DNA from: a virus
Length of the DNA: 31,173 nucleotides
Direction: 5' to 3' (one strand)
IMG/VR virus record: IMGVR_UViG_3300032006_001406
Location: 1 to 31,173 of that record
The notes under the pieces were generated by a model. That model was not told the DNA's origin and made no database searches. It worked only from the letters and a program-made list of their open reading frames with translations. Made by a program: the position numbers and the translations under genes. Numbering within the stretch: the first letter of the stretch is position 1; each line of letters starts with the position of its first letter. Of this stretch, positions 1 to 25,684 are shown piece after piece.

Positions 1-3000
1 GGGCCACCACCAATCCACCCACCAGCCTGGTACTGTCCTTCGAGGATGCCCATCCGTGATGCTCCACCACTGTGAACGGCCTCACTCACCTGGTGGTATT
101 CTGCTGCGGTGAGCCTGTTGATCAGATACTCGTTGCCAGTCGGCACCAGTGCACGAGTTTGCTCATGCGTGTCCATCGGTGTTAACGGGCTGGTGTATCC
201 CATCTTCAGCCTATTGTAGGCTGGAACCTTGAGCGCACTAGGATTGCTTAGTGCCGGATTGATGATGCCCGTTTCACGGTAACGATCGAAGATCTTGTAA
301 GGTACACCGTCATCTTTGTCAGGCAGGAAATGCTTAGGACCGTTGGGGTGCATTGCAACGTAGTGAGCTCGGGCCTCCGAATACGGGATGTTATGAATTC
401 TCGCGTAGTTCATCAGAGAGCCGTTCGCTATCTCTCCGCTCACCGAGTTCTGTACCGAGCCCGCAGATGTCGCCGCGACCAGATCCTCGAACGACGTGAG
501 TGGGTTGTTTATACCGTCGATACGCTGGGCAATGGGATCCAGGTTGTAGAAGCCCCTGCCACCTTGCTCCAGCCCCAACCTGACCTGCCTGTCGAGGATG
601 TTCATCACCCGCTCATGGGTGAGTGACTGGGTTAGGCCTGGCCTGCGCTTGCCTGTAGGGTCAGGCAAGAGGTCCGGCTGACCACTGAGTCGTCTGTATT
701 CTGGATCGAAGCCAGTCCTGTCGAACACGCCACGTTCGATGGGAGTGAAGTCCTCACCGAGCTCGTACCGTCCTGGGTCCGACTCGATGTGAGCGAGCGC
801 AGCCTCGGTGCGTGACAGCCTGCGTTGTATCTCACTGCGTGGGGCACGGCCAGCGGATTTAGAAGGGGTCTCCGGCCTGGGGTAGAAGAGTCCCCTGCCT
901 GGTATGTCCTGTTCTGCCGCCCTTAGCTGCCCTGCGGTTCCTTGGATTCTGGTGAGGTCTGATCCTGCTCCGAACCCGTGCTTGTTGGCGAATCCTTGAT
1001 AGGCTGGGGTGATGTGTTCATCGATGATATTCGCCAGTTCGCCAAATCCTTCTGGTCCTTTGGTGGCAGCGGCGTATAGTTCTCTCCCGAGGTAGATCCC
1101 TTGAAAACCATCGTAATACCTCTCCGTGACATCGGCGTTATTAACAGCGGCATCGACCTTGTCTACTAAGTCAGATGGACTGCCGCTACCGTAATCTATT
1201 ACCACAACCTTATCGCCATCAAGAGTTGCACCGAGGTCATTTGCCCTGAGCGACTCAACGATCTTCTGCGTATTACCTTTCAAAACAATACCAGCGTAAT
1301 TGTCTTCCGCTGAGACAACGTGCTTGGCTAAGTCGGAGGCCGTTGGGTTAGAAAGACTTGCTGACGAGTACGCCGCCTCGGCTGCCTGACCAGTGACAGT
1401 TCCCCTGTAGGCCATGATCGTTTTGATCGCCTCTGTGTCTGCACCCTCGATCTCCAACAACACATTGGGACTTACGACACCCTCATAAATTCCTTCGCCT
1501 TCTCTCTTGACGATCTTGACGTTGGAGCCAGTCTGGCGGTTATAAAGGTCAACGATCAGATCACCGGACTCGCCGCCGCTCAGCGCCCGCTCGATTACCG
1601 TGGTGAGCTCTGCTTCGTATTGTTTAGGCGTGGCCCTGAATAAGCCTACTTGTAAATCTTTGCTGACGTTCTCGTGGGTTATCGTCCATGATGATCTAGG
1701 GAGCTCGACCTTGCGGGTATCTCCTCCAGCACTCTCCCACCTCGACGGGTCACCATAGATCCCTCGTACCGCCTCCGCATCACCAGGATCTTGTAGATCG
1801 AAGACCCCCTGCTTCGAGTCAGCAAACTCTGTGAGCCACGGGTCGATGATGTAGCGGTCATCAAGAACAGCGAAGTCGTGACCATCTGCCTGTGGAGCAA
1901 TTTCCTTAAATCCTTTATTTCCACCGAAAACTGTTCCAGGATTGGCTTCATCCGAAAAACCAACAACCTTAACGCGACCTTTGCCAAGTTTATCTTGGAT
2001 AGCGCAAGCGAAGCCTGTGCATTGAACGCCAGAGTGCCCCGTCTTACGGAAGGATGATTGACCTTCTCCACCAAACTCGATCCCGTAAAACTCATCCATG
2101 TGTTCACTAGAATCGAAGCGAATAAACTGCTCGTCCAACTGCCGCCTTGTAGTTTCACGCACTGCATCAGTACCCTTACCGCCGACTCTCTGCAAGGCTG
2201 ACCCGAGAGGAGGCTGTGTTGTCGCAGCACCCTTCAGCCTGGTAGCAACCCTGCTGGCAGTACCCCTGAGTGTTCTTCCAACTCCCGCTGATCCCGCTCC
2301 TTTAAGAGCGGCCTGACCGAGGCCACCGAGCAGTGCTCCTGTGATGATGTTGCTCATCCTCTCTTCTTCAGAGTCGGCGGGTGCCACAGCACCAGTCAGG
2401 CCACCACCAACCATACCAGCCGGACCCGTGCCGTACACATACCCAGAGCCTTCCTGCCTGACCTTCTCACGCATCTGGGGAGTGACCTCGAAACCCCAGT
2501 CCGGTCCCAGGTCACTATACTTCTTCTGCTCGATCACCCACTGGCCGTAGAGACCAGACTCGGGATGTGCTCCTGTTAGGTATCTATTAGCATTGATGTC
2601 GAGCTCCTCGAACGACATCTGTTCTGGCTCTTGTCTCCATAACTCAGTCTCATATTGCTGCTTGTATGCCAAGCCTTCTGCTTCAGCGAATTGGCTCACA
2701 TAGGCATGGGCCTCTTCCAGAGTATCGAAGCGAGGGCCTGCCACCACGCGCCCAGCGTTCTGTGTCCTTGAACCAACAGGCTTTACGATGATGGGATGTG
2801 ACGGGACATCACCGACATCGCCTAGTCGATTGGCCTGCTCCAGCTTTCTTTCCCACATAGCTAGTTTAATGCGAGCTTCTTCTATGCGCCTAGTGAGCTC
2901 TTCACGATTACTATGCGTAGGCGTTAGGGCTTTTTCGTCAGAGGCGAGTTGGTGTCGAAGCTCCTGGATTTTGTTCTCCATCGCGTTTATGAACCGCTCC

Positions 3001-6000
3001 TGACCAACCATGACCCTGTGGAACACACCAAAGTCGTTTGTGTCTTTGACCTCAGCGTGTGGGAGTCCGTAGTTAATGCGCGTGACCCGTGGCGCAGAGT
3101 TCTTGCCGTACTCTGATTTCAGATATCGGGCGGCGTGTTTTGGCAGCAACTGGTTGTAGCGAGACAGGTGCGCCGCACCACCGACTCCAAGAGCTTCGCC
3201 CCGTATGTTGGCAGCCGTCATATGACGCTGAGCTAGATCTCCTCCAGCACTTTCCTTCATGCGTTCAATCTCCATTTCGAGATTGAATTTGTACTGCTGA
3301 GCTCCTCCTAGACCTGTGAGATCGTGACCTCCAAGAATCGTGTCCGGTATCCTGGTGTCGCTAAAATCAGTAGCCTCAAGCTCGGCCCACTCTGCTCTTA
3401 GGGCAGTTTCCTCTGCTGTGTTCCCATACAACAACTCCTCTATCTCTTCACCTCTTTTAATGATTGGCTCTAACGCTTCTATCTTTTCTTGTAGTGGCTG
3501 TATCGCCTTAGCCACCCTTGCTTGATGCGGTGCAAGAACCGGATAGTCCTCCCAGACACCTTCCTGTGACATCCATTTTTTGAAACTTAGGTTAGTATCG
3601 AATGTTCCAAATGGTCTAGCCAGAAACTCTTCACGCTTGGCCTCGAAGCGTGCAGCCTTCGCTATGAGTTCCTTGGCGGGTCCAGCGCCGATGTATTCCC
3701 CGAGCTTATCCTGCTCTATCACCTTTCCGTTGTAGCCACTTAACGTCGCGCCATTGTGGCCCCAGACAGTGAGCTCCCCTTCTGTCCCACCTATAGGCCT
3801 CCACTCTATTTGCTTGGCATGGTTTCTGACGCCGTAAGTGTCGGCACTGGCTTCACCGCTCAGCCAGGTCACACGATCATGCCCACCTTCGACAGCCATC
3901 GCGATGGCCTTTTTGACGATGAGCTCTATTCGAGGCTTTTGTTCCTGGTACGGGAAATTGGCTGGCACGTTGCTGCCGCTCAGAGCAAGAAGCGCAGTGT
4001 CCATTACTTCTTCTTCAGTGGCTCCCTCTATGAAGCCCTGTCTCGTGCGTTTCGCTGGATCCCACTGTTTTGTGCCACCACCTTCCGGTCGAGTAACACT
4101 TCCTCCAGGCTTCCACTCGTAGGGCTGGTCAACTGAACCCCTGTAGGCTTCCACTCTGAGCTCTCTACCAGCTAATCGGTGCGGCCTGCCAGATCCCCAG
4201 CGGTACATATCACCTGGGTGCATACCTTCTGATGGACCCGATGGGTACTCGTTAGGCCACCGGAAATCCTCGGGAGGAGTCACTCTCCATCTCATGCCTG
4301 GCATTTGAGATATGTACCCTTGTTCAAACCCAACACCACCCAGCATAGCTCTCTTTAACGCACCTTCAGTTAGGGGAACAGCAACCCCAACAGGGTAACC
4401 ATTTGGATCTACAGGTGCGTCTAGAGCTGACAAGGAAGTGGGGGGAGACTCGGCGTCTTTTGCCCACTGGTAGCTGTAGTCTGGTAACTCCTCCTGGTGG
4501 ATATATAAGAGCGCCGACTCTATCGCTTCTTCTCTGGTGGCTCCGTGGATTACCATATGGTTACCAGAGTCCCACTGCCCTTCAGGGAAGAGGAGGTCGT
4601 CCGCTTGCTGGCCTTCTCCAATCTGTTTTTGTGTTGACTGACCCAGGTGTCTCTTAGGTATCACCACCATCCACGGCATCGGGAGAGGTTCACCTGTTTG
4701 GGAGTTTTGCCTTCCCTCTGTCACGGCCTGTTGGTAACCCTCGGCACCGTGCCCCTGAAACTCTAGCGGCGATTCCTGCCAGCGAAGGTTCCCGAGATCA
4801 ATACGGTCTATGTCTGGCTGGAAGCCATAGCTTCTAAGCTGTGGGTCAGCGCCATAGCCCCTGGGCACCGCACCGCCTGGCATATGCACCGTAGCCATCT
4901 CTTCCGGTTCAAAGACCTCACCGAAGAGCCTTGTCTGTGTAGCGTCCAACTCGGTTGCCGCTCTGACCAACTCCTCAGATGCTATGAGGGATTCCCTGGG
5001 AAGCTCGTACTGTCTCAAATGCCAGGCATGAGATGGAGAGTCATAACTCAGCTCTCTAGGGGTCATCGATGCCTCGTTAGTTACCGTAGGGTTTACACCC
5101 TTTTGGGCAATCGAAGCTATTCTAACTAGATCGTTGGGGCTGATAACGCCTGTGTCGAAGCTACCCTCAAAAGCGTTCAGGACATCGCTGTCAGCGCCCG
5201 CATGGTACAAAGCTTCTCTGAGATTTTTTTCAAACCCACTCAACGCAGTGACGTAACGCTGCCTTGCTTCACCGAGTCCGGCTTCCTCTAAATTGACAAT
5301 TGTAGATTTGCGGTCGCCATACTTGGGGAACAGCTCCTCGACATTCACCGCTCGCAGAGATTCCATATACCCTTCTCTGTCACGAATCGTAGTACGGAGT
5401 ACCTCTCTGGCTTCCGCAGCAGTCGCAGCAGGCCTGGCTTTTGTCCTGCCAGCGTAACTGGTTACAAAATCTGCCCTCTCTTCCCTCGACATCGATTCAA
5501 GTCCCAGCTCACGTCTCACCGCACTCAGGTGACCTTCCCACCTGTCAGGAGCTGCTATGTTCCTGGGCAGTGCTCCATTGTACACATATCCATCGCGTGA
5601 CCACAGATCAGCGTGCTTGTGTAACGGCGTCTCGATTCTGGGGGGCGATACGACTCCCTCGTCGTATACCTCTTGAGGAGTTCTCCTTGGGCCTTCTACC
5701 ACCGTTCCCTCGGGGAGCTCGTCTTGGCGGTATCCCGTCGCCCTCGCAGGTGTAATTACATCTTCCTGGGCTTCACCGATATTGAGGTGTGTTTCCTTGC
5801 GCCCAGTCTCAGGGTTCACCCAGTGACGATCCGATGTCCGTATACGAACGATTGTGGCAGCAGGATCTTTGTGTGTCCGAGCTTTACTTGAGAATCCTCT
5901 GGGATCTGCTCCTCGGATAGTTGTGTCCGTCTCGCCTAGACCGAAGGGCATACCAGTTACTGGCCGATCCCTGACGTGACGTTGGAGATCGAGTAACCGT

Positions 6001-8576
6001 GTTTGCTCGCCCTCTAGGGTCAACTGCTCAAGGACACCTGTAGGCTCCCCCTCGTATTGTGTCTGTACTACTACCTCCTCACCACGGGCCAGTGCCGCGA
6101 TGTGCCGCTCGGTTGTAGCGATGTCGGTTGCCAGATCTCCAGTCAGGTGCTCAGGGTCACCCGAGCCAACACGATACGGTTCTATTCCTGGGCCAGGCCT
6201 GCCTTCAAACATCCTCTCGCGCTCTGCTCTCAGCGCGGGAGTGTCGTACTGAACCATTACTTCTTGGTGGTTGTCGGTCATCCTGACCTCGTTTCTACCA
6301 CGTTGGTTCCACTGACGGACAGTGCCTTCACTAGTCCACTGAGGCTGCTCTCTCATCCCAGGTGGTAGCATATGCATAGGAACGAATGCGCTTGCATCGC
6401 TATGCACGCCTATACCTTCTGGGTTCTTTTGCATCGTATACAAGAAAGCGTCGGCTTCTTCTTTGGTCGCAAACGATTCTATGAGAACGGTGCTGTCTTC
6501 GATAATCGGCTCTTGAGTTTCCTTGGCACCCAACCTTTGTCTCGGCATTGTGCCGTAGATATGGAACGGCTTGGCCGGATCCAGCTTCCAAAGATCGTTT
6601 TTGTAACCAGTTACTCCAGCAGGCCAAGAGACAGGAGCGTCTGCTGGCCTGTCCATAAATTGATAGCCAACCCAATACTCGTCTGCATCGTACATTGGAG
6701 ATTCTTCAGCCATTCTATCATATATCTCATCTTCCCAGCCTCCATACGGGGGCGCTCCCTCGCCCCAGACTGGGCGTGCTTCCTTTGGGAGGTCTCTAGC
6801 CGCCAGCCACTCCTCTATGTCTCCTGGTTTATGCTCTACGATATGCGGGTTCTTCCAGCGCACGCCCTCAGCTCGTCGTGTCTCTGGTAGCTCTAGACGA
6901 TTCTGGTCATGGTAGGCCAGCAGCTCGTCTCGGGTGAACATCTTCTTAGGATCTTCCGAGAGCAGTTTCTGCATACCCGTTACGTCGAGCTCGCCCTGCC
7001 TGACTGCTGGCCTGCCCTTGTTTGCGTCACCCTTTACAAACATAGAGAGCCACTGTGAGGCAGTAGCCTTTTCTTGTGGTGCCTTCTCGATGGCAACCTG
7101 CAACCTGGACTCCTGAGCTCCTGGCTGGATACCGACAGGTGCACGAGTGGACTCAGCGATACTGGTCAGTAGCTTGGGTGCGTTGATCGGCGGCAGCATT
7201 GGCGATATCGGTGTGCCACCTCCTAAAGGCTTAATGGTGGTCGGAGCAATATCCCCTACGTCTAAGGTGACATCGCCCTTAGCTCTGCCAGTCAGACGTG
7301 CCTGTCCGGCTGTCTGTAGCGGTGTACGGCCAGCGAGCCCAGGTGTTACGACCTCGGTTGCCTGTGGTGTTGGTCTTGGTGTTGGTCCTGGTCCTCCAAG
7401 CGTCCAATCGGATGGCTTCGTCTTCATCACCGTAGCGTCACCAGGCATCCTGTACCTATTCATCATGCTCAACTTGCCGAAGTTCGTTAGCGCACTGATA
7501 GCGCCCGTGAACCCCAAGTTCGATACCGCCCTAGACCACCACCTGGAACTAACGTCTGTACCGAGCACGTTATCCACAATGTGAGACGCATTCATCAAGT
7601 CTGGGTGCATCGCCATGCCGACATTCGGTATTGCGTATCTACCAGTGACACCAATGAGCGTTTGGGCGAATGAGCTCGGCTGCCCCGAGACCATAGTGGT
7701 TATATATTCTGGCTCTAACCCACCTTTTACGAAGTTGGGGTTAGGAATTTGTTTTGCGAATTGCTGGCCTGTTTTAGTTCTCCAGGGATTAGCTATCGCA
7801 CGGAGAGCGTCAAGTGTACGACGCTTATCGGGGGACATGGCCGCTACTACTCGACTCTGATTGTGCAATCTTATCGCCTCGGCGGCAGCGATCTCCGATT
7901 CTGTCGCGTTGGCAATACCCCCCTTGAACGCCGACATCGGATCCCTGGGAATCGTATAGCTACTACCAGGACTAGGAAGCGCCCTTTGCATACCCCGCAT
8001 TGTGCTACCCACCATCCTACTCCCCACTGCTGTGGCTCCCATTCCAGCCAAAACACCAGCACCCTCGAATGCTGCGAGAGTCATTCCGAGATGGGCAGTC
8101 CCTCTACCTATATCTGCTGGCTTGCTTTTGATGTCACGCATACGCCAGTCTTCTTGCCTCTGACGTGCCATAGTAGGATCGGTGCCAACTATGTCGTGCA
8201 GAACAGCAGTACCACCGTGCACAGCGCCCGCTGCCTGCCTTCCGGCACTTATGAAGGCATCCGTCAGCGGCCCAGCGAACGGACCACCTACGGATTCGGG
8301 ACGAATTTCAGTGGGTTCTTCCTGGAACTGGGCAGCTATCGTAGGAGGATCAGCAGGCCCTATTGTTGGCTGCGGTGTAATACCGTACTCATCAACCACC
8401 CTGGTAACGTCGGCTGGTTGCTGAACGCCTTGGATGAGTTTGCGGAGCTCGCGGTGGTCCGGCCCTCTTTCTTCTACTGGGGGCGCATCGAGATTGGCAC
8501 GCCAGTTAGGCGTGTATCCCGCCAGAATGCGCTGTAATAGACTTAGCGGCTTGGGGTCATCATTATGAAAAGGCAT
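1..8576 (-). CDS. Giant polyvalent-type phage protein, partial (C-terminus off the left edge)
   Basis: The frame is open from ATG at 8574-8576 to the window edge: 2858 codons without a stop. Layout by residue: Pro-rich start; Gly/Ala hydrophobic segment about 155-190; Trp509 in ASQWLSMF and FTRDELLAYHDQNRLEL at 547-563; long variable region; PYQEQK from 1542 followed by HDRVTWLSGE (Trp1571); coiled coil about 1685-1735; GEALGVGG from 1793 and LLPK; coiled coil about 1855-1917; EVTPQMR 2030-2036; second Gly/Ala segment about 2050-2115; papain-like triad C2186/H2233/D2245; DTH at 2802-2804. The blocks near 509-563, 1542-1580, 1793-1825 and 2030 occur in this order in large polyvalent proteins of phages and conjugative elements. 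Some such proteins, like P1 DarB, are co-injected to counter host restriction. The start is 1 nt past the upstream stop, suggesting coupled translation; its own ribosome site is weak. An injected multi-domain effector is inferred from the neighbours, not shown. I saw no RNA polymerase motifs. Confidence 0.85.
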   Translation of the reverse strand, partial: MPFHNDDPKPLSLLQRILAGYTPNWRANLDAPPVEERGPDHRELRKLIQGVQQPADVTRVVDEYGITPQPTIGPADPPTIAAQFQEEPTEIRPESVGGPFAGPLTDAFISAGRQAAGAVHGGTAVLHDIVGTDPTMARQRQEDWRMRDIKSKPADIGRGTAHLGMTLAAFEGAGVLAGMGATAVGSRMVGSTMRGMQRALPSPGSSYTIPRDPMSAFKGGIANATESEIAAAEAIRLHNQSRVVAAMSPDKRRTLDALRAIANPWRTKTGQQFAKQIPNPNFVKGGLEPEYITTMVSGQPSSFAQTLIGVTGRYAIPNVGMAMHPDLMNASHIVDNVLGTDVSSRWWSRAVSNLGFTGAISALTNFGKLSMMNRYRMPGDATVMKTKPSDWTLGGPGPTPRPTPQATEVVTPGLAGRTPLQTAGQARLTGRAKGDVTLDVGDIAPTTIKPLGGGTPISPMLPPINAPKLLTSIAESTRAPVGIQPGAQESRLQVAIEKAPQEKATASQWLSMFVKGDANKGRPAVRQGELDVTGMQKLLSEDPKKMFTRDELLAYHDQNRLELPETRRAEGVRWKNPHIVEHKPGDIEEWLAARDLPKEARPVWGEGAPPYGGWEDEIYDRMAEESPMYDADEYWVGYQFMDRPADAPVSWPAGVTGYKNDLWKLDPAKPFHIYGTMPRQRLGAKETQEPIIEDSTVLIESFATKEEADAFLYTMQKNPEGIGVHSDASAFVPMHMLPPGMREQPQWTSEGTVRQWNQRGRNEVRMTDNHQEVMVQYDTPALRAERERMFEGRPGPGIEPYRVGSGDPEHLTGDLATDIATTERHIAALARGEEVVVQTQYEGEPTGVLEQLTLEGEQTRLLDLQRHVRDRPVTGMPFGLGETDTTIRGADPRGFSSKARTHKDPAATIVRIRTSDRHWVNPETGRKETHLNIGEAQEDVITPARATGYRQDELPEGTVVEGPRRTPQEVYDEGVVSPPRIETPLHKHADLWSRDGYVYNGALPRNIAAPDRWEGHLSAVRRELGLESMSREERADFVTSYAGRTKARPAATAAEAREVLRTTIRDREGYMESLRAVNVEELFPKYGDRKSTIVNLEEAGLGEARQRYVTALSGFEKNLREALYHAGADSDVLNAFEGSFDTGVISPNDLVRIASIAQKGVNPTVTNEASMTPRELSYDSPSHAWHLRQYELPRESLIASEELVRAATELDATQTRLFGEVFEPEEMATVHMPGGAVPRGYGADPQLRSYGFQPDIDRIDLGNLRWQESPLEFQGHGAEGYQQAVTEGRQNSQTGEPLPMPWMVVIPKRHLGQSTQKQIGEGQQADDLLFPEGQWDSGNHMVIHGATREEAIESALLYIHQEELPDYSYQWAKDAESPPTSLSALDAPVDPNGYPVGVAVPLTEGALKRAMLGGVGFEQGYISQMPGMRWRVTPPEDFRWPNEYPSGPSEGMHPGDMYRWGSGRPHRLAGRELRVEAYRGSVDQPYEWKPGGSVTRPEGGGTKQWDPAKRTRQGFIEGATEEEVMDTALLALSGSNVPANFPYQEQKPRIELIVKKAIAMAVEGGHDRVTWLSGEASADTYGVRNHAKQIEWRPIGGTEGELTVWGHNGATLSGYNGKVIEQDKLGEYIGAGPAKELIAKAARFEAKREEFLARPFGTFDTNLSFKKWMSQEGVWEDYPVLAPHQARVAKAIQPLQEKIEALEPIIKRGEEIEELLYGNTAEETALRAEWAELEATDFSDTRIPDTILGGHDLTGLGGAQQYKFNLEMEIERMKESAGGDLAQRHMTAANIRGEALGVGGAAHLSRYNQLLPKHAARYLKSEYGKNSAPRVTRINYGLPHAEVKDTNDFGVFHRVMVGQERFINAMENKIQELRHQLASDEKALTPTHSNREELTRRIEEARIKLAMWERKLEQANRLGDVGDVPSHPIIVKPVGSRTQNAGRVVAGPRFDTLEEAHAYVSQFAEAEGLAYKQQYETELWRQEPEQMSFEELDINANRYLTGAHPESGLYGQWVIEQKKYSDLGPDWGFEVTPQMREKVRQEGSGYVYGTGPAGMVGGGLTGAVAPADSEEERMSNIITGALLGGLGQAALKGAGSAGVGRTLRGTASRVATRLKGAATTQPPLGSALQRVGGKGTDAVRETTRRQLDEQFIRFDSSEHMDEFYGIEFGGEGQSSFRKTGHSGVQCTGFACAIQDKLGKGRVKVVGFSDEANPGTVFGGNKGFKEIAPQADGHDFAVLDDRYIIDPWLTEFADSKQGVFDLQDPGDAEAVRGIYGDPSRWESAGGDTRKVELPRSSWTITHENVSKDLQVGLFRATPKQYEAELTTVIERALSGGESGDLIVDLYNRQTGSNVKIVKREGEGIYEGVVSPNVLLEIEGADTEAIKTIMAYRGTVTGQAAEAAYSSASLSNPTASDLAKHVVSAEDNYAGIVLKGNTQKIVESLRANDLGATLDGDKVVVIDYGSGSPSDLVDKVDAAVNNADVTERYYDGFQGIYLGRELYAAATKGPEGFGELANIIDEHITPAYQGFANKHGFGAGSDLTRIQGTAGQLRAAEQDIPGRGLFYPRPETPSKSAGRAPRSEIQRRLSRTEAALAHIESDPGRYELGEDFTPIERGVFDRTGFDPEYRRLSGQPDLLPDPTGKRRPGLTQSLTHERVMNILDRQVRLGLEQGGRGFYNLDPIAQRIDGINNPLTSFEDLVAATSAGSVQNSVSGEIANGSLMNYARIHNIPYSEARAHYVAMHPNGPKHFLPDKDDGVPYKIFDRYRETGIINPALSNPSALKVPAYNRLKMGYTSPLTPMDTHEQTRALVPTGNEYLINRLTAAEYHQVSEAVHSGGASRMGILEGQYQAGGWIGGG
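1706..2129 (-). other. Papain-like Cys-His-Asp domain inside the giant protein
   Basis: This segment encodes about residues 2150-2290 of the giant frame. A Cys sits in VQCTGFACAIQ (Cys2186), as expected for the nucleophile at the start of the core helix. GHDFAVLDDRYIIDPW follows, with His2233 starting one strand and Asp2245 before Pro-Trp in the next. The order Cys, His, Asp and the ending 'IIDPW' are typical of papain-like and transglutaminase-like folds, which include peptidases, amidases and deamidases used as effectors and toxins. A second Cys (2191) lies five residues on. The segment directly follows a Gly/Ala hydrophobic stretch. The substrate cannot be told, and activity is inferred only from the triad. 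Confidence 0.6.
4282..4310 (+). repeat. Left arm of a perfect 29-bp inverted repeat
   Basis: The reverse complement of this stretch is identical over 29 nt to 5013-5041, and the identity stops abruptly at both ends. In the giant gene this arm encodes SQMPGMRWR plus two bases of the next codon (residues 1423-1432). The arms are separated by 702 bp. The giant frame is open through both arms and the spacer. Confidence 0.95.
5013..5041 (+). repeat. Right arm of a perfect 29-bp inverted repeat
   Basis: This is the partner of 4282-4310. In the giant gene it encodes most of DSPSHAWHLR (residues 1179-1188), the antisense reading of the other arm, so the two arms give unrelated peptides. In the minus-strand transcript the arms could pair as a 29-bp stem around a 702-nt loop. 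Confidence 0.95.
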
Positions 8577-13077: not shown

Positions 13078-15507
13078 TTATTCGCTTTTGAAACCACCGT
13101 TTTCTTTAGACTCTGTCCCACCTTTTGGAGGAGCAGGTGTCGTTGTACGGCCTGACCTTTGAGAGTATTTCCCTAGCCACTTATTGAGCTCATCAGTATC
13201 TACATCGGCACTCAGAGCCTCCATGACCATCCTGAGCCGTTCGGTATCGTCGGCTCTCTCGAACTCGGACTCACGCTGCGCGAGTTGCTCCTCGGTCTCC
13301 CACTTTCTGACTTCGAGCTCTTCTCTCTTGAACTCACGATCCTTATCGCGCTGTGACGATTCCAGTTCGTGTAGTCCTTCCCAGCGAGCTCGCTCGTTGT
13401 CGATCTCCCACGTTCGCATCTCGGCTGACCGCGCTTCGATAGCTTCACGGCCAGCGATTTGAGCGTCGTTCATTGACTCCCTTGAAAGGTTGTCTGCTGC
13501 TCGCATAGAAGCCTCGGCACTAAGACCCAACTCTTGCAGCTCCAACTGCAACTCGGATCTCGCCGTGTTGTTGGCACTGTTCATTCTTTCGTTCGCTTGA
13601 TCCGTCGCTGCACGCCAAGCGGTCTCGGCGTCTAGGCCAGCTTGCACCATCGCGTCGGCCATTTCTTGAATCTTTTCACGGCTCCCGAGCTCGGCATTCT
13701 GTAGCGCAGTTTCGTGACCCCTATCGAGTACCGCAGCCGCTACATCGGCATCGATGCCCAGATTCATCAACTCTTTTTGTGATTTATTGCGGGATTCCTG
13801 CATCGCGATGTTGGCTTCGTTGGTCGCCTTGTTGCGTGCAGTCTCTGCCGAGATGCCTTCCGATTGGATCTTCTGGGCTGCCGTTTCCAGCTTCTCCTGC
13901 AACTCCTGGTCAGCCTTACGCCAAGCAGCTTCCTCCTCTATACCCTTCTCCTGGAGCGCGAGAGCTTCACGTTCGAGGACGCGATTCAGTTTGTTCTCTG
14001 CCGCCTGAGCTTCTATTGAGCCTGCCTGTAGGCCTGCTGCGGCCACCCGTTCTGCTGTGCGATCGGCGTATTCTGCCTTCCTCGCATCGACCTGCTCTTG
14101 GTATTCCTGCTCCTGCAATCCGAGACTCTCGGCCCACTGGCTCTGCTGAGCTTCATGTGAGGCCTGGAACTGATCCTCTTGAGCCTGCATTCGTGCTTGT
14201 TCGAGCGTGAGCTCTTGACCGAGTCTGTCGGCTTCGAGCTGCAACTGATCGCTGCGCCACTGGATCTCGGCTTCGTCGCGAGCCTGTTGCAGATCCATGT
14301 CCTTGTTGGCGAGCTGTATCCGCTCTGCGTCTTGATCGAGTTGGCGTTCGCTCAGGCCTAGCTCTTGCAGACGGGCCTGTCTTGCCTCTTCGAGCACAGC
14401 CTGCTCCTGGCTCAGCGATGCCTCGAACTGCTCGTTCTGTATTGTGATGCGCTCGCGAGCGATGTTGAACTCTTCTCCTGCGAGCTCCTTCTCTTGTTTT
14501 AGCGACTCTAGACGGAGGTCGATTTCTGCTTCGTTCATCGCCTCTGTTATGTCCATCGCACGCCCAGCTTCCGTGGCCCTGTTCTGTATCTCCATCGCCC
14601 TCAAGCTGAGCGACTCGCTATCGAGTCCGTACTGCTGGATCCGAGCCGTTTGTGCTTCAGTGAGCGAAGCCTCGAACTGGGACTGCTCTTGCGCCTTCTG
14701 GGACTCGAATTGCTGGTTTTCGATTTCCATCTTGGCACGTCTGAACGCCTCATCGTACTCCATGCCCGTCTCTTGGAGATCGAGCGCCCTCTCTTGGATT
14801 GACGATACCGAGCCGAACTGCTTCTCCCATTCGTACTGGGATTGGCCGAATTCAGCTTGCCAGCGTTCTTCGTTCACTCTATCGCCACCGAGTTCACGCT
14901 CGAACTCGGCTGACCTGAACCCTATATCGGCAGCACCAGCTCTGTCGGCTGCCCAGGCGTCTGCTGCTGCTTGGTTAAGTTGATTTAAGCGTGATGTGCG
15001 TTCTCGTTCGAGGTCACCGAGCAGTCCTGCTCTGAGCTCACCTTCGACGCTGGATCCAACCATGCCACGCTGTGACATGAACTCATCTAGCTCTGCTCCT
15101 GCATACAATCTCTTGTTTTCGAGCTCGGCATCGATCTGACTGGTGATGTCGCTAATAAGATCACTGTCGTAGCGACTCGGTTTCGCCATCGCATCACTGG
15201 CGAAATTCTCCATACCTGGAGCAGCAGCTTCTGCGCGGAACGCACCTGGAGGTGTGTCGTATTCGGGAGCCGCTTGACCAGCAGCGAACCCACCGCCTGG
15301 CGCAGCTTGAGCCTGCCATGTAGCTAGTGATGGATCGAAAGTCTGTCCTGGGTTAGCCTCTTGCCACGCAGATTCCAAGTTAGCGGCTCTTGTGGCTGCG
15401 TCTCCCTCTCCGAACATACCAGGCGGCACTGAGAAGCCGCCCTTCTTTAGTTGTATATCCCTCGCTTTCGGAGGCCTTACAAGTGGAGTATCTGTATTAA
15501 TCGGCAT
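13078..15507 (-). CDS. Long helical-repeat (coiled-coil) virion protein, 809 aa
   Basis: The ATG shares one base with the preceding TAA. The first 110 residues are Pro/Gly/Ala-rich and disordered-looking. From about 110 to 770 the protein is almost entirely charged helix rich in Glu, Gln, Ala, Arg and Leu, without a signal peptide, membrane segment or enzyme motif. Units of roughly 36 residues recur, each with a turn of the type 'G-(I/L/M)-x-x-(E/D)-x-A': GMEYDEAF, GIEEEAAW, GISAETAR, GIDADVAA, GLDAETAW, GLSAEASM. The C-terminus is a polar Thr/Pro/Lys/Gly tail. Phages use such proteins as internal core or ejection proteins (podoviruses) or as tape measures (long-tailed phages). With no tail-tube gene seen and Gly/Ala-rich ejection-type genes following, I favour an internal protein. 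The family is not recognised. Confidence 0.88.
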   Translation of the reverse strand: MPINTDTPLVRPPKARDIQLKKGGFSVPPGMFGEGDAATRAANLESAWQEANPGQTFDPSLATWQAQAAPGGGFAAGQAAPEYDTPPGAFRAEAAAPGMENFASDAMAKPSRYDSDLISDITSQIDAELENKRLYAGAELDEFMSQRGMVGSSVEGELRAGLLGDLERERTSRLNQLNQAAADAWAADRAGAADIGFRSAEFERELGGDRVNEERWQAEFGQSQYEWEKQFGSVSSIQERALDLQETGMEYDEAFRRAKMEIENQQFESQKAQEQSQFEASLTEAQTARIQQYGLDSESLSLRAMEIQNRATEAGRAMDITEAMNEAEIDLRLESLKQEKELAGEEFNIARERITIQNEQFEASLSQEQAVLEEARQARLQELGLSERQLDQDAERIQLANKDMDLQQARDEAEIQWRSDQLQLEADRLGQELTLEQARMQAQEDQFQASHEAQQSQWAESLGLQEQEYQEQVDARKAEYADRTAERVAAAGLQAGSIEAQAAENKLNRVLEREALALQEKGIEEEAAWRKADQELQEKLETAAQKIQSEGISAETARNKATNEANIAMQESRNKSQKELMNLGIDADVAAAVLDRGHETALQNAELGSREKIQEMADAMVQAGLDAETAWRAATDQANERMNSANNTARSELQLELQELGLSAEASMRAADNLSRESMNDAQIAGREAIEARSAEMRTWEIDNERARWEGLHELESSQRDKDREFKREELEVRKWETEEQLAQRESEFERADDTERLRMVMEALSADVDTDELNKWLGKYSQRSGRTTTPAPPKGGTESKENGGFKSE

Positions 15508-18037: not shown

Positions 18038-21000
18038 TCATGGGCTCACGTCTACTTCTGGAGACGGGCCGTGTATAGGTGGTTCAGCAACTTTTTCTTG
18101 CTCTACGATGACTTTCCCAGTTTCATCGGTCCAGTCGGTTTCCATCATGTGTTCGTCACACCGTTCTGCGACTACTAACCAACTAACACTATCACTAGAA
18201 TCAGAATCAGCGCATTCTATCGTAAGCACACTTCCTTCGACTGAACCACGCACAGCGGACCATCCGTCCTCATTCTGCACCCAGCATTGCGGGTCACGAC
18301 AGAGTAGCTCCCAAGTTCCTTCGCTCATGTCGGAGGCTTCATCTAAATCGACTTGAGCCGTACCGCCGGAAAGCTCTACCTTGCCTCTGTAATTTAGGTC
18401 TGCTCGCGGTCCTTCGATGAATGAATGATATAGGCTATGCGTGTCCTTCTTTTCTGGTAACGGATGGTCGATTTTGAATGAGCCAGAACCCTTAGATAAG
18501 GCACCAGCCAGAGTGACGTTACCATCTTCCATGACTTGAAATACCGTAGCGTCAGAATCATCGCGATCAGTCACGCATCGGATATGGTAATAAGATTGCG
18601 CCGCAGACCCCGCCGCTGTTGTCATTAGAAGAGATGGGGTGCCACTGGGGACGCTGACGTTGTGATCTAGCGTTAATGCGTTAAAGGTGGAGGTGCTAGT
18701 GCGGATATATGCCGCTGAGCTCGCCCCATATCCGTTGGCTCCGGCAGTCCTAGCTCCAACCAGAAGGTTTACGTCAATGCAAAACGCCCCTGAGTCAATT
18801 AGTCCGGCATAGTTGTTAGTGCCTCCACCAGAAGGTGCCCCTTCTATATAGAACGAGGCAGTATTAGTCACAGCGGCACTAGTGGCATCTAAGTTGATAC
18901 CAGGAGTATTGATTCGCATCTGGGCAATCAGCCCAACGGTAGTGCTGGCCGGAACCACAAAGCTGTTGTTTACATACAAGCCAGTGAGGTGACCAGTGTT
19001 GTTGGCGTGACCAGTCATGGTTGTGCCAAGCGTCACACAGGCTTCGTTATCTGAGGTCGCTTGGCTTGTATAGCTTCCTGTCTGCTCAGTGATGCCTGCT
19101 ATAGCAAGATTGCCGTAAGACTTGACCTCAATTCCGTGCGGGGCAGAACCGGACTCAGCAACATGGAATGCCGTAACACCACCAGCCACTACATCTAAAC
19201 GATCAGCCGTACCCTCTTCGATATAGGTATTGGATCTGCCGTCTAGATAGAACTTACCACCAGCAGGCATCACAAAATCTTGTGCGGCTTCTATATATTC
19301 ATTGCCACTATTGTAGTTGAAGTTTGCTACCTCACTCCCACCACAGATGACTCCTATGTGGTCAGCACCTCTTTCGTGGATGTAAGTATTGCCGCCGCCG
19401 TCTAGGTAGAACTTACCTAGAGGATTCATTGTTACATTTCTACCTTCCAGTTGTAACGAGGCATACTGCGACCCATTCTCATAGGTGTATAACAGCAACT
19501 TACTGTCTTCACTGGTGTTACTGGCATCAGTCATTATGCTACGGATTAAACCACATTCTAGGCCATTGCCAGCATCATCTTCTGTGTAGAAATAGATGCG
19601 GCCACCTTCGTCATCGTCTTGGCCCACTCTGGTATTTTTGAGGTTTAGAACACCGCCATTAGCGTTAGCACCAGTGTTGCTTATGTTTACGGTAGGCGTT
19701 CCAGCAATATCTAGCGTGACAGTTGGGGTCGGAGTACCAATTCCTATTTTTCCATCCGACAGAATCGTCATGCGGTAAGTGGGAGCATTGGCACCATCAG
19801 CAGTTGTACCAAACTGCAACCTACTGGGAACGTCATTCGCACCTGGGGTGCCGTCTATGAAGCAACTGATCTCAGCACCTACGGAACCCCTATCAGTACC
19901 ATCAGCGGCATCCCAGTAGATTGCCCCCAAATGGTCATCATCTTGAACGATGGTGTCAGAATTGACCGCTGTACCTCTGGATTTACCCAGATACAATGCG
20001 GGTCCATTGGCATCGTTGCTATTTCTGAACGCAGATATACTTGAACCAGGACCGCCAGTACCTTCTACCTGTAGCCTAGCCGTTGCTCCATAAAACGCAT
20101 CGGGTGTAACAGTTCCAAGAGTGAGAACACCAGATGTATTTAGAGCAAACTTGGTATTAGCCGCACTGCTTCCCGTACCCATCATAAACGAAGTGCCATC
20201 ACCCCAATCGTCGCTATCACGCAATCCAATAGCCCAGTTGCTACTTCCAGCAGTTTGGAAATCAACTGTGGCATTCTGATCCGATGCTGACCTGTCTATG
20301 TCTACAGATGCCGCTGAAGATGAATCAACAATGACCTTGGCCGCTGACTTAGCGACTTCAAGATTACCACTCAATGTAGCCGCCGCGAGCGTAGTGGCTC
20401 CCGACACACCCAGCGTACTAGCCATATCTACCGCACCGTCGATATCCACCACATCTAGGTTGGTAGTCCCGTCTACATCCAAATCACCATTGAAGTCTGC
20501 GTTTCCAGCCAGAGTTAGCGTTCCAGAGACATCCAGTGTACCGTTCAGATCTACGGCGGTTGTGTTGATTTCCACCTCATCGGTCGCCGCGATAATCATC
20601 TTCGTGGCGCTGGCACCGCTGATGTACTGGGAAGCGTCGTTGAACTGAAGCTGGCGAGTGCTGTTCAGGAGGATTCCTGTGTCAGCAACGTGAGTGAGCG
20701 TTACGTCGCGATCAGCCCCCCACGCCAGCACAGCGGCGTCGGTCTTGAGGCTGACGTGCTGGTTGAAGTCCCAGGAGTCGGTGTCGTTCTCCCAGAGTAT
20801 TGTCTTGTCGCTTGCGCCTTTTAGCGTGATACCACCACCGTCTGCTGTAGAGTCGGATGGGGAGGCGACTGAGCCAAGCTCAATGTTTTTGTCGTCTACC
20901 GAGATCGTGGTGGAGTTGATGGTTGTGGTCGTACCGTTGACCGTAAGATCGCCAGCTATAGTGACGTTGCCCGTCAGCGCCGACGTACCTGACACAGTCA

Positions 21001-22621
21001 GTGCCGCATTAACGTCTAGCGTGGTAGCATCGATGTTGACATCGGTGGTCGCCGCAATATCTAGGTCAGCGGCTGAGCTCGCACCGATATACTGGCTGGC
21101 GTCGTTGAACTGGATACGCCTGGTGGAGTTGAGTAACAGTCCGGTGTCGTGAACGTGGGTAAGGCTGACCTCACTGTCGCCTCCGAAATTCAGTACGGCA
21201 GCGTCGGAAACCAGGCTCAGATCATCCCCTACTGATGCATCTGCGCTCATGGTCACGTTTCCGGTTAGCAGGCTGGTTCCCGACACATCCAACGTGCCGT
21301 TCAAGTCCACTGCCGTAGCGTTTAGCTCGATCTCGTCGGTAGCATTGATATCGAGTACAGTTGCGCTAGGTGCATTGATGTACTGTGATGCGTCGTTGAA
21401 TTGCAGCGCCATCGTGGAATTCAACAGCAATCCCGTATCGGCAACGTGCGTCAGGCTTACATCTTGGTCATCGCCTAATCCGATAACCGCGCCATCGGCA
21501 AGATACAGGTCGCTGAACTCTAGTGACGTTGTACCTAGCGCAGCCCCATCTGATGCGTCAGGAACAAAGGCTGTCGTAGCAGTGATTGTTGTGCCCTGTA
21601 TGGTGCTAGCGCCTGTTATTGCTCCACTTACTAGCAGCGTGCTAGCCATGTCTACTGCTCCGTCAATATCTACTACATCTAGATTTGACGTACCATCTAC
21701 ATCTAAATCGCCATTGAAATCTGCGTTACCAGCTAGAGTCAATGTTGATGCCATATCAACAGCACCATCAATGTCTACGACATCTAGGTTTGCGGTCCCG
21801 TCTACGTCCAGGTCGCCTGCTAAGTCAATTCCTGCGGCACCTGCTAATACCAAGTCATCAGTAGACGTGTCCCATAGCATATAAGCACTGGCTGTGTCAC
21901 CAAAGAATTTGACATCGTATCCAGTGTCATCGACACCAACCGTAACCGTTGAATCAATCTGTACTGCACCGTCAATATCAACTGCATCTAGGTTGGTGGT
22001 GCCGTCTACGTCCAGAGCTCCGTTAAAGTCTACAGCACCCGCTACAGTGAGCGTGCTTGAGACATCTAATGTGCCGTTCAGGTCTATTGCGGTAGCAGTA
22101 AGGTCGATCTCGTCAGTAGCAGCGATAGACAGTACCGTGGCACTTGTGCCACTGATGTATTGGCTTGAGTCATTGAATTGAAGCTGTCGGGTGCTATTCA
22201 GGAGTAGACCAGTGTCGGCAACGTGCGTCAGGCTTACGTCCGAGTCAGCTCCGAAATTCAGGACTGCTGCGTCCGATTTCAGCGTAACGTCATCGCCTAC
22301 TTCCAAGTCCCCTGCCAAGGCCAGCTTGCCAGCCGTCCAGGTGCCTACCGCCGTACCAGCGATCACATCGAGGAACGTGCCTGCGGCAGACATATAGCGA
22401 CCAGAGTCCTTGTCGGCCTCGAAGCTGTAACTAGGACGAGACGCCGATCCACTGGCTACTTGGACCTGGCCGTCCTTGTCTATCGTGCAGACAAGAGTCC
22501 CCGAGTTGGGTCCGTTCCAGATCTCCAGCAACGACTCGTCTGTCGTATCGCGAGCTGTCGCGAACCCAAGGATGTGGGTGTTGTCCTGTGGTTGGATCGC
22601 CTTGATCCCGAAAGCACCCAT
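18038..22621 (-). CDS. Large repeat-containing tail fibre-like protein, 1527 aa
   Basis: ATG at 22619-22621 has GAGGT 7 nt upstream. After a short N-terminal domain (about 1-115, probably particle attachment) comes a Asp/Gly/Thr/Ala repeat region (about 116-740). It contains four copies of a roughly 73-residue module centred on 'LTHVADTGLLLNST' and several short 'DVDGT.NLDVVDIDGAVD' units, expected to form a beta-rich shaft. The middle and second half mix beta-rich modules, including GKIGIGTPTPTVTLDIAG, a pattern common in trimeric fibres, and two 'KFYLDG..NTYI' units. Near the end, FKIDHPLPEKKDTHSLYHSF and 'EGPRADLNYRG' are a conserved C-terminal module shared by many phage fibre and structural proteins. 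No endosialidase or lyase catalytic motif was seen. Host attachment is inferred from architecture and position. Confidence 0.88.
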   Translation of the reverse strand: MGAFGIKAIQPQDNTHILGFATARDTTDESLLEIWNGPNSGTLVCTIDKDGQVQVASGSASRPSYSFEADKDSGRYMSAAGTFLDVIAGTAVGTWTAGKLALAGDLEVGDDVTLKSDAAVLNFGADSDVSLTHVADTGLLLNSTRQLQFNDSSQYISGTSATVLSIAATDEIDLTATAIDLNGTLDVSSTLTVAGAVDFNGALDVDGTTNLDAVDIDGAVQIDSTVTVGVDDTGYDVKFFGDTASAYMLWDTSTDDLVLAGAAGIDLAGDLDVDGTANLDVVDIDGAVDMASTLTLAGNADFNGDLDVDGTSNLDVVDIDGAVDMASTLLVSGAITGASTIQGTTITATTAFVPDASDGAALGTTSLEFSDLYLADGAVIGLGDDQDVSLTHVADTGLLLNSTMALQFNDASQYINAPSATVLDINATDEIELNATAVDLNGTLDVSGTSLLTGNVTMSADASVGDDLSLVSDAAVLNFGGDSEVSLTHVHDTGLLLNSTRRIQFNDASQYIGASSAADLDIAATTDVNIDATTLDVNAALTVSGTSALTGNVTIAGDLTVNGTTTTINSTTISVDDKNIELGSVASPSDSTADGGGITLKGASDKTILWENDTDSWDFNQHVSLKTDAAVLAWGADRDVTLTHVADTGILLNSTRQLQFNDASQYISGASATKMIIAATDEVEINTTAVDLNGTLDVSGTLTLAGNADFNGDLDVDGTTNLDVVDIDGAVDMASTLGVSGATTLAAATLSGNLEVAKSAAKVIVDSSSAASVDIDRSASDQNATVDFQTAGSSNWAIGLRDSDDWGDGTSFMMGTGSSAANTKFALNTSGVLTLGTVTPDAFYGATARLQVEGTGGPGSSISAFRNSNDANGPALYLGKSRGTAVNSDTIVQDDDHLGAIYWDAADGTDRGSVGAEISCFIDGTPGANDVPSRLQFGTTADGANAPTYRMTILSDGKIGIGTPTPTVTLDIAGTPTVNISNTGANANGGVLNLKNTRVGQDDDEGGRIYFYTEDDAGNGLECGLIRSIMTDASNTSEDSKLLLYTYENGSQYASLQLEGRNVTMNPLGKFYLDGGGNTYIHERGADHIGVICGGSEVANFNYNSGNEYIEAAQDFVMPAGGKFYLDGRSNTYIEEGTADRLDVVAGGVTAFHVAESGSAPHGIEVKSYGNLAIAGITEQTGSYTSQATSDNEACVTLGTTMTGHANNTGHLTGLYVNNSFVVPASTTVGLIAQMRINTPGINLDATSAAVTNTASFYIEGAPSGGGTNNYAGLIDSGAFCIDVNLLVGARTAGANGYGASSAAYIRTSTSTFNALTLDHNVSVPSGTPSLLMTTAAGSAAQSYYHIRCVTDRDDSDATVFQVMEDGNVTLAGALSKGSGSFKIDHPLPEKKDTHSLYHSFIEGPRADLNYRGKVELSGGTAQVDLDEASDMSEGTWELLCRDPQCWVQNEDGWSAVRGSVEGSVLTIECADSDSSDSVSWLVVAERCDEHMMETDWTDETGKVIVEQEKVAEPPIHGPSPEVDVSP
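20415..22275 (-). repeat. Tandem and interspersed repeats within the fibre gene
   Basis: Four copies of a module of about 220 bp lie at roughly 22051-22275, 21281-21495, 20990-21209 and 20526-20743. Each encodes 'DVxLTHVxDTGxLLNST' and 'QFNDxSQYI', and ends near 'LNGTLDVS' or a variant. Shorter units encoding 'DVDGTxNLDVVDIDGAVD' lie between them, for example at 20420-20506, 21644-21730 and about 21745-21815. The copies are close at the protein level but differ at many third codon positions. Confidence 0.85.
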
Positions 22622-22625
22622 TTAA

Positions 22626-22937
22626 CTACCTCGCTATCATGTAGACTATGTCATCACCTGCGTTGTCACATATGATGTAGAGCTCGTCCAGGTTGCCGAC
22701 TGGGATCCACCCAGTCTCTTCCTTGGCATCTAACTCCCATCCGCTTGTCACATCGGTAGTACCATCTACCACGGTGACTCCTGAAAAGCCGACGTAGACG
22801 TTTCCAGAGTTGTTTGCCACCGCTTTGATATTCACACATTTAGCGGTGACATCCGGCAACTGTGCGGCACTGGTGGAACCAGATTTTTCCCCTGTCGCTA
22901 CAACCCTGACGTATTGCGTTGCGTTCATTCCCAACAT
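22626..22937 (-). CDS. Small beta-rich virion protein, 103 aa
   Basis: The frame could begin at 23042, but that would overlap the preceding gene by 94 nt. ATG at 22935-22937 (MLGMNATQY) lies 11 nt after that gene's stop and has AAGGA 8 nt upstream, so it is chosen. The protein is short, beta-rich and soluble, with 'AQLPDVTAKCVNIKAVANN', 'GNVYVGFSGVTV' and 'LDELYIICDNAGDDIVYM'. The pattern 'aqLP...c..v.I.a...N.g.vYvG.sgVt' followed by 'v.nl..iyv....g..v.y' is common in small phage structural proteins near head-tail or fibre genes. The function is not established; decoration or fibre attachment is plausible. It is 4 nt from the fibre gene, so they are probably co-translated. Confidence 0.8.
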   Translation of the reverse strand: MLGMNATQYVRVVATGEKSGSTSAAQLPDVTAKCVNIKAVANNSGNVYVGFSGVTVVDGTTDVTSGWELDAKEETGWIPVGNLDELYIICDNAGDDIVYMIAR

Positions 22938-22945
22938 GGCACTTG

Positions 22946-22950
22946 TCCTT
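22946..22950 (-). promoter_or_regulatory. Ribosome binding site for the 103-residue protein
   Basis: The minus strand reads AAGGA, 8 nt before ATG at 22937. It overlaps the stop codon of the upstream adaptor gene and supports the downstream start over the long overlapping one. Confidence 0.5.
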
Positions 22951-23647
22951 ATGTGTAGTAGTGTGTACCCAGCGTCGGTTTCGGCCTGAGCTTTCTCGGT
23001 GTCCTGCTGCGTCGTGAGCGCCGGAACGCACGCTGCTCGCACGTCCTAACCTTATTGCGGATCTTGGCCTCCATCTCTTGTCCACCAGGAAGCCATGAGT
23101 CTTCCATAGCTCTCTCTGCTGCGTATGCCACGATCAGCGGTCGGTCCTCGCTAGGGAAATCGACCGTAGCACTCGATAGCGTAGGCAGGCGGTGATGGTA
23201 GTCGTAGATCAAGCTTGCAGGTGGATTAGCACCCCTGGCGATCCACAGGTTGGTGCCTTGCAGCCAGTAGCGGTTGCCCCTGACTCTGAACCTGTCCCTG
23301 AAGTCCACCAGGCTGCCCCAGCGCGTGCCGTCTATCTTCCTGAGCGCACTGGTCATGTCGTCGCCAGCCAGCCGGAAGAAGTCGCTTTCTAGTGCCTTGT
23401 AGCGTCCACCGTCATCCGATTCCGTACCGCTCCACGACGTGATCGCCGTGGCTTGTGATACCCACCTATCGGACAGCCCGCAGTCCATCAGATAGTCTTG
23501 AGCGTCGTTTAGTCCATACTGAAGAAACTGGTTGACGGCTTCCAAGGACGAGTCGTCGTGCTCGATCAGAGAGTCGTCATCAGAAGCAGTATCAGTAATC
23601 CTGTAGAACGCTCGCTGTAGACTTGCCAGATTGGTGAGTACGGCCAT
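22949..23647 (-). CDS. Putative head-tail adaptor/connector protein, 232 aa
   Basis: The ATG shares a base with the preceding TAA. The protein is mostly helical in its first half (LASLQRAFYRITDTASDD and 'SSLEAVNQFLQYGLNDAQDYLM'). A central beta part follows with 'TRWGSLVDFRDRFRVRGNRYWLQGTNLWI' (parts quoted), then a helix near 'PLIVAYAAERAMEDSWLPGG', and it ends in a very basic stretch rich in Arg. This organisation (helical bundle, beta insertion, C-terminal extension) and the location between capsid and tail genes fit the adaptor that docks under the portal. I recognise the style rather than a specific named family. The basic tail could contact DNA or the portal. Confidence 0.82.
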   Translation of the reverse strand: MAVLTNLASLQRAFYRITDTASDDDSLIEHDDSSLEAVNQFLQYGLNDAQDYLMDCGLSDRWVSQATAITSWSGTESDDGGRYKALESDFFRLAGDDMTSALRKIDGTRWGSLVDFRDRFRVRGNRYWLQGTNLWIARGANPPASLIYDYHHRLPTLSSATVDFPSEDRPLIVAYAAERAMEDSWLPGGQEMEAKIRNKVRTCEQRAFRRSRRSRTPRKLRPKPTLGTHYYT

Positions 23648-24769: not shown

Positions 24770-25684
24770 TTAACTACTCGCCGTACCGATAAGCATACCT
24801 GTCTCGCCACCAGCGTTAACCCCGTAATTCTCAAAGAGGCTAAGCGAACCAACGGTGTTGACCCAGGTCGTCTGGCCGTTCGTTGCGATCATGCAACTGT
24901 TGTACCTGACGTGCCCTGTGGCGGCACTGTACCCCTCGATGTTCACGTCAACAGCGTTGGCGTTCTCTAAGGCACAGTCTTCGATGAGACAGTCCGTCCA
25001 TGCAGCACTCATGTCGATGTTGGCTGCCGAGAAGTCGCCGTGGCTAACCAGTTTGCGAATCGTGACATGGTCAGCCGCTGCTCCGGTGAGGAACCCAGTG
25101 TTACCCGCTGTGTCCGTACCGTGGTTCACGCACCCGATGCACTCGAAGTAATCCGCATCGGCAGTAAGCGTGATCCAGTGCAACGTGTTCTTCGCTGCCG
25201 TGGCATCGTCGAACAGGCAGTTCTCGATCCGACAGTGAGCTGCCGTGACGGGAATACCCACCACGAGCGAGTCCACGTCATTGATGAAATGGATGTTCTG
25301 GATGGTGACATTAGCCGCCGACACTGCAACGGTCGCTGCCGTATTGTCGAGCGTGATCTGTGGGCGGTCGGTGCCTCGGCCTAAGCCGATAATGCTGATG
25401 CCCGCCACGTCTGCCGCGATAGCTGATGCGCTACTGAGCGTCTCAGCGTGTCCTGGCATCGCGTAAATGATGTCACCCTTGCTCGCCGTGCATTTGTTGA
25501 TCGCGGCGTCGATTGTAATCAGAGCCTCGTCCGAGGCGTCCCCTGTGTTGGCCGCAGCTCCACTACCCGAGTCCACATAGAAGATGGAGCCCGTCGTGTG
25601 GTTGATGAGGTTCCGCAATTCCTGCGAATACTTCACCTCGCGCAGAGCGTTACGCAGCCTGTTATTCAGTTCCTGACTTGACAT
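24770..25684 (-). CDS. Parallel beta-helix virion protein beside the capsid gene, 304 aa
   Basis: The first 30 residues form a charged helix (LNNRLRNALREVKYSQEL). FYVDSGSGAAANTGDASDEA follows, then successive short strands with Ala/Asn/Asp turns: ISIIGLGRG, VTIQNIHFIND, CRIENCLFDD, YFECIGCVNHGTD, VTIRKLVSHGDF, CLIEDCALENANAVDV. That spacing is typical of right-handed parallel beta-helix proteins. The opening motif with 'G.IIYAMPGHAETL' recurs in phage proteins encoded next to capsid genes. No polysaccharide lyase active site is evident. A head fibre or decoration protein, or a trimeric host-binding appendage, is likely. The gene begins 105 nt after the capsid stop, past a hairpin, with AAGGGA about 10 nt upstream. 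Confidence 0.85.
   Translation of the reverse strand: MSSQELNNRLRNALREVKYSQELRNLINHTTGSIFYVDSGSGAAANTGDASDEALITIDAAINKCTASKGDIIYAMPGHAETLSSASAIAADVAGISIIGLGRGTDRPQITLDNTAATVAVSAANVTIQNIHFINDVDSLVVGIPVTAAHCRIENCLFDDATAAKNTLHWITLTADADYFECIGCVNHGTDTAGNTGFLTGAAADHVTIRKLVSHGDFSAANIDMSAAWTDCLIEDCALENANAVDVNIEGYSAATGHVRYNSCMIATNGQTTWVNTVGSLSLFENYGVNAGGETGMLIGTASS

Follow-up and report, generated by a model that had tools for sequence, protein, structure and literature searches.

The virus record IMGVR_UViG_3300032006_001406 of IMG/VR, analysed here over its whole length of 31,173 bases and referred to as the window, carries on its minus strand an open reading frame (18038-22621) whose 1527-aa product is predicted to be a phage tail fibre, both by profile and by its position in a block of virion structural genes. 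When compared with the PHROG profiles, this protein matches the tail fiber protein family phrog_18345 (E 4.9e-26, aa 817-988) and, as a second match in the same gene, phrog_9942 (E 2.6e-20, aa 455-994). The genes for a portal protein (phrog_156), a major head protein (phrog_14242) and an internal virion protein (phrog_511) lie around it on the same strand. The best stretch for phrog_18345 falls outside the region of A and B repeat units described below, and the one for phrog_9942 partly overlaps it. Membership of the Bactofilin family (PF04519) was rejected, as the match of 21.4 bits is below the Pfam gathering score of 27.9, and so was membership of a chorion family, whose Pfam match is also under the cut-off. 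Fibres of cyanophages and other marine phages resemble parts of the window fibre, and the virus is probably a marine, short-tailed phage. Just upstream of the fibre gene (22626-23647, minus strand) there are open reading frames of 138 and 232 aa with a 94-base overlap; the listed start of the shorter one may be too early, since most of its relatives match only about 100-105 of its residues.

The fibre protein is repetitive beyond chance, with a best self-diagonal score of 61 against 7 or less in 40 shuffled proteins. Profiles built from the gene's own copies locate four A units of about 85 aa and four B units of about 35 aa, all of them on the minus strand. In the order of the protein, these are A unit 1 (22058-22309, aa 105-188, profile match of 151 bits), B unit 1 (21929-22036, aa 196-231, 66 bits), B unit 2 (21728-21832, about aa 264-298, 67 bits), B unit 3 (21620-21727, aa 299-334, 72.5 bits), A unit 2 (21278-21505, aa 373-448, 138 bits), A unit 3 (20987-21241, aa 461-545, 146 bits), A unit 4 (20522-20761, aa 621-700, 147 bits) and B unit 4 (20396-20503, aa 707-742, 72 bits). 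B2 and B3 adjoin each other, with a spacing of 35 aa. The number of units in related phages, a check proposed in the initial annotation, varies: by the same profiles, the window has four A and four B units, L003 five A and three B, and L009 two A and no B, and neither kind was found in L010, L014, L015 and L016.

An AF2 monomer model of aa 96-345 reaches a mean pLDDT of 77 and a pTM of 0.54, with most of A1 well scored and the B units scored medium. A Foldseek search with this model gave only weak matches (best E 0.65). The VIA comparison returned the phiKZ spike (Z 5.3, rmsd 2.5, 62 aligned), the K1F endosialidase (Z 5.1, rmsd 3.4, 85 aligned) and P2 gpV (Z 4.7, rmsd 4.2, 114 aligned), all of them under the trusted level of the tool. 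Its 13 best rows consist of phage or injection-system spikes and endosialidases with Z of about 5 or less, and the later rows include unrelated proteins. The matched spikes and endosialidases are three-chain beta-helical proteins. The repeat region may form a trimeric, beta-rich fibre shaft.

The units are kept as protein and differ in their codons. The initial annotation had counted 14 synonymous differences and a single Thr/Ser change between two stretches of 29 codons, 20420-20506 (codons 706-734 in the minus-strand frame of the gene) and 21644-21730 (codons 298-326), which correspond to B4 and B3, respectively. An exact recount agrees: 14 codons are identical, 14 differ synonymously and one differs non-synonymously (T/S), with 16 nucleotide differences in total. 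Likewise, the 26-residue core of B2 keeps 25 of its 26 residues in B3, with 18 synonymous differences, and 25 of 26 in B4, with 16. Over the whole fixed spans, the protein identity is 63-83% in the other 11 of the 12 pairs of own copies. The dN/dS check that had been suggested for these copies gives a dN of 0.015-0.38 in the 12 pairs and a dS that goes from 1.2 to undefined by saturation, with a value of 1.0 in one 18-codon piece of B1/B2; the ML and YN00 values of dS, which are unstable at saturation, were left out. The result that would have refuted the observation, copies that all change to a similar degree at synonymous and non-synonymous sites, was not found.

B1, the linker that follows it, B2 and B3 form a block (21635-22057, minus strand, aa 189-329) that is recognised by its DNA identity to other IMG/VR contigs. 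Over aa 189-328, it is 86-89% identical to the DNA of L062, L071, L076, L077 and L079, and blastn stretches of 87-90% identity are found in these five and in L067. The order B1-linker-B2-B3 is conserved. Between the window and the five contigs, the block has a dN of 0.011-0.04, a dS of 0.54-0.65 and a dN/dS of 0.018-0.074, and since this dS is not saturated, the comparison between phages gives a usable estimate of strong constraint; between L062 and L071, the dS is 0.48. Therefore, as own copies start at a dS of 1.2, the spelling of a copy differs more from its siblings in the gene than from its counterpart in other phages. For neighbour counts, a B unit was defined as a 29-aa stretch with at least 17 matches to the consensus. 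Of the 67 B units sampled, 65, among them the four of the window, are closest in DNA to a unit of another contig, and only two to a unit of their own (3.0%, against 3.6% with shuffled labels, in 25 non-redundant fibres). Concerted evolution of the B units was rejected on this count. The closest DNA relative of B4, for instance, is the third B unit of L077, with 82 of 87 nt.

The phages that share the block appear to differ from the window in other genes. The head proteins of L062, L071, L076 and L077 match phrog_371, whereas that of the window matches phrog_14242 (the head is unclassified in L067 and L079). When 19 window protein queries were compared with the six sharing pieces, the only one to match was the C-terminus of the fibre, which is 68-74% identical to L062, L067 and L071 over 138 aa; the other 18 gave no match. 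The fibre block and the tail end are thus shared and the core genes are not seen, a partial test given that these pieces are 4.2-12.5 kb long. The fibres of all six contigs open with another N-terminal sequence. In a tree of 15 distinct blocks, the window and L002 fall between L071/L076/L077/L079 and a group made up of L062/L067 and the rest, with supports of 0.97 and 0.92, and as the tree is unrooted the direction of transfer is not readable from it. Relatives of the B block are also encoded in sixteen bacterial genome contigs (L101-L116), 14 of them from MAG-titled records.

Base composition differs along the gene. It had been noticed that some copies look more AT-rich than others, and codon use per copy bears this out, with a GC3 of 0.28 in B3, the AT-rich copy of the pair compared above, 0.36 in B2, 0.51 in B4 and 0.67 in A4. 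The AT-richness looks regional and not a property of single copies, since the linkers beside B2 and B3 are also low in GC3 (0.42 and 0.45). Along the fibre, the GC3 is 0.69 in the N-terminus, falls to 0.28-0.45 in the stretch that runs from B1 through the linker after B3, returns to 0.61-0.67 over A2 to A4 and is 0.39 over aa 743-988. In the other large genes of the window it is 0.57. The N-terminus, B3, the A2-to-A4 stretch and aa 743-988 depart by at least 2 s.d. from synonymous shuffles; B1, B2, the B1-B2 linker and B4 do not depart from them on their own, and B3 is the only one of the five pieces of the low-GC3 stretch to lie more than 2 s.d. away. The GC3 of the block is 0.35 in L062 and 0.34 in L071, against 0.45-0.61 in their sampled structural genes. 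The block is therefore AT-rich in all three phages measured, in agreement with a block that moves as one piece.

Close relatives document changes at the scale of units. In the sister phage L002, whose head protein differs from that of the window at about 0.5% of residues, one A unit has been replaced within the 619 fibre codons compared. The replacement is in frame (21257-21460, minus strand, about aa 388-455): DNA identity is 70% over aa 376-460 and 88-100% in the 60-nt windows outside aa 381-460. A search for the donor of the replaced unit gave no close candidate among the best 79 loci of the scan. The fibre of L003 is devoid of the linker of the window and of the greater part of B2, with a different linker at this position.

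Taken as a whole, the region is probably a repetitive fibre shaft made of old, constrained duplications that have since been exchanged between phages in blocks. The model proposes that the A and B units would have arisen by duplication long before these phages separated, that selection for a trimeric, beta-rich shaft would have kept them, and that recombination would then have moved them between phages in blocks, so that one gene may now hold units of different recent sources. As the best DNA matches to its A and B segments are in fibres of other viruses, the window fibre seems to be a patchwork whose parts were traded, and not a set of fresh copies. Two origins had been offered in the initial annotation for repeats of this kind, and both find support. 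Old duplication under strong protein constraint is borne out by a dS near or at saturation between copies and a block dN/dS of 0.02-0.07 between phages, and assembly from different phages by a block common to other phages, B units with their closest DNA in other contigs and the unit replacement in L002. These are not alternatives: the divergence of the copies is ancient, and blocks of them move from phage to phage. Overall, this is ordinary fibre mosaicism, well resolved.

The most serious competitor is vertical descent, in which an ancestral fibre duplicated its units and each lineage then drifted without exchange. The age of the copies, with a dS of 1.2 or more, and the conserved order B1-linker-B2-B3 would agree with it. 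Even so, it is improbable, because phages with another type of head protein carry the block at a dS of 0.54-0.65, because L010 and L014, whose major head proteins are 88% and 94% identical to that of the window, show no A or B units, and because a single unit has been replaced in L002; the unrooted block tree and the fragments also lean against it.

It could also be argued that the codon divergence is itself selected, since identical repeats would be deleted, as a natural form of codon scrambling. Such selection should leave copies sharing fewer codons than expected from random synonymous choice. In the window, they share 186 codons, above the mean of 146 (s.d. 9.6) in synonymous shuffles, none of 2000 shuffles reaching that number; since the shuffles pool codon use over the whole gene, regional GC3 may account for some of this excess. 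In a first sample of 34 fibres, the window included (34 of 42 non-redundant fibre ORFs, all with at least two repeat pairs, and excluding a contig that has two ORFs), none is significantly low in codon sharing and 21 are significantly high. Compared with shuffles, none of these 34 has a longest exact run that is significantly short, and 12 have one that is significantly long. A second sample of 60 fibres (60 of 114, picked by one peptide, its overlap with the first sample not removed) has again none significantly low, and 34 significantly high. Selected codon scrambling was rejected on these counts and is very unlikely. In its favour, the longest exact direct repeat in the whole fibre gene is of 23 nt, and very few recent copies are seen in both samples: the codon identity is 0.20-0.69 in the 48 pairs of the first sample with at least 90% protein identity, and it is 0.9 or more in one of 770 copy pairs of the second, a rarity that should not be over-read, since short-read metagenome assembly can lose fibres with long exact repeats. 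Some recent duplication or conversion does exist, which speaks against all copies being old, as an exact 26-base spelling is common to 9 of 100 pairs within a contig and to 87 of 14951 pairs between contigs (contigs not cleaned of redundancy) and L126 has an exact run of 87 nt between copies; this run and those of 47 and 52 nt in L179 are likely to be recent duplication or conversion. The earlier suggestion that codon divergence would limit the loss of repeats by recombination can be kept in part: such an effect may exist as a by-product, considering the 23-nt repeat, but selection for it is contradicted by a codon agreement that is above random in the window and never significantly below it. 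We infer that the codon divergence results from drift and mixed origin, and is not a selected device against recombination.

That the copies were duplicated in tandem only recently and then changed fast at synonymous sites is the least credible reading of all, for even if B2 adjoins B3 and a few recent-looking pairs occur elsewhere, in L179 and L126, B2 and B3 share only 7 of 24 codons at shared residues (6 of 24 in the core, where 8.1 are expected at random), and neighbouring pairs are not more alike than distant ones, with a median codon identity of 0.511 and 0.516, respectively.

When aa 96-345 were searched against 50,697 records of isolate phages, six weak matches came up, so that few genes of finished genomes enter the comparison. 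Ten genes from six isolate records were considered, four of them without an internal pair. The gene S-SM2_032 of Synechococcus phage S-SM2 (L119, 3002-4885) has a 29-aa tandem array in which 111 of 123 residues are kept, with codons at random expectation (54 of 111, 51.6 expected), and this is the pattern of same protein and drifted codons in a finished genome. A second array of the same gene keeps more codons than expected (64 of 89, 38.4 expected), as does a collagen-like array of S-CBS2 (27 of 32, 13.4 expected). The picture that isolate fibres offer on codon keeping is mixed.

A further step in the reading of old units exchanged in blocks, which is put forward only tentatively, is that phages from distinct families would take their units from one shared stock of ancient A and B lineages, every lineage having a spelling of its own, and that the short B units would be the preferred joints of exchange. 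Block edges were taken as the ends of similarity blocks of at least 300 nt and at least 85%. In a first set, 24 of 61 edges fall in B units, against 8.8% at random and 21.7% with conservation-matched positions (the highest of 300 draws being 34.4%), and in a second set, cleaned of overlap, 29 of 79 do so, against 9.2% and 26.2% (highest 35.4%); each block is counted from both fibres, so the edges are not independent. No excess is found in A units (10 of 61 and 0 of 79). With 200-nt blocks in the second set, 31 of 101 edges are in B units, which only equals the highest matched draw. The excess is no more than suggestive of a role as joints, and B units could also be simply well-conserved borders of modules.

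Fibre modules shared among the unrelated marine Alteromonas phages A5, V22 and P24 have been reported (PMC10579305), and the likeness to the window lies in host-recognition parts common to phages of distant families. Those phages share whole host-recognition modules with chaperones, whereas what the window appears to share is an internal block of some 140 codons together with single units and a C-terminal domain, placed behind different N-terminal sequences. Persi et al. 2016 (PMC5120217) describe purifying selection and birth-and-death of protein repeats, with copies conserved singly and homogenisation not being the rule. As in the window, copies within a protein are more diverged there than the same copy is between related proteins; in the window, the comparison spans phages with different head proteins, and thus points to transfer in addition to descent. 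The sharing of fibre modules and the repeats diverged within and conserved between proteins were therefore already published, and the present case fits both. Codon scrambling of repetitive genes in synthetic biology (PMC12365220, PMC10094428) resembles the window in that the same protein repeat has different DNA spellings; it is designed to avoid recombination, whereas the window repeats have no excess of divergence over chance. In a literature search, no title or abstract start among the papers listed deals with codon-diverged fibre repeats in phages. Repeats of same protein and different DNA need no special selection for codon divergence. Their synonymous sites serve as lineage tags, by which copies with nearly the same protein sequence can be told apart, and these tags let the exchange of fibre parts be traced unit by unit in metagenome data. 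The composition of the fibre can change which cells a phage recognises.

Three other minus-strand frames of the window have no Pfam or PHROG match. One of them (3-8576) encodes 2858 aa and is open at the window edge. Another one (24770-25684), which adjoins the major head gene, encodes a 304-aa protein that was not detected in L008-L013 and is found at 87-100% in L001-L007 and L014. The third (13078-15507) encodes an 809-aa protein with 15% Ala, 14% Glu and 9% Gln, which is probably helical.
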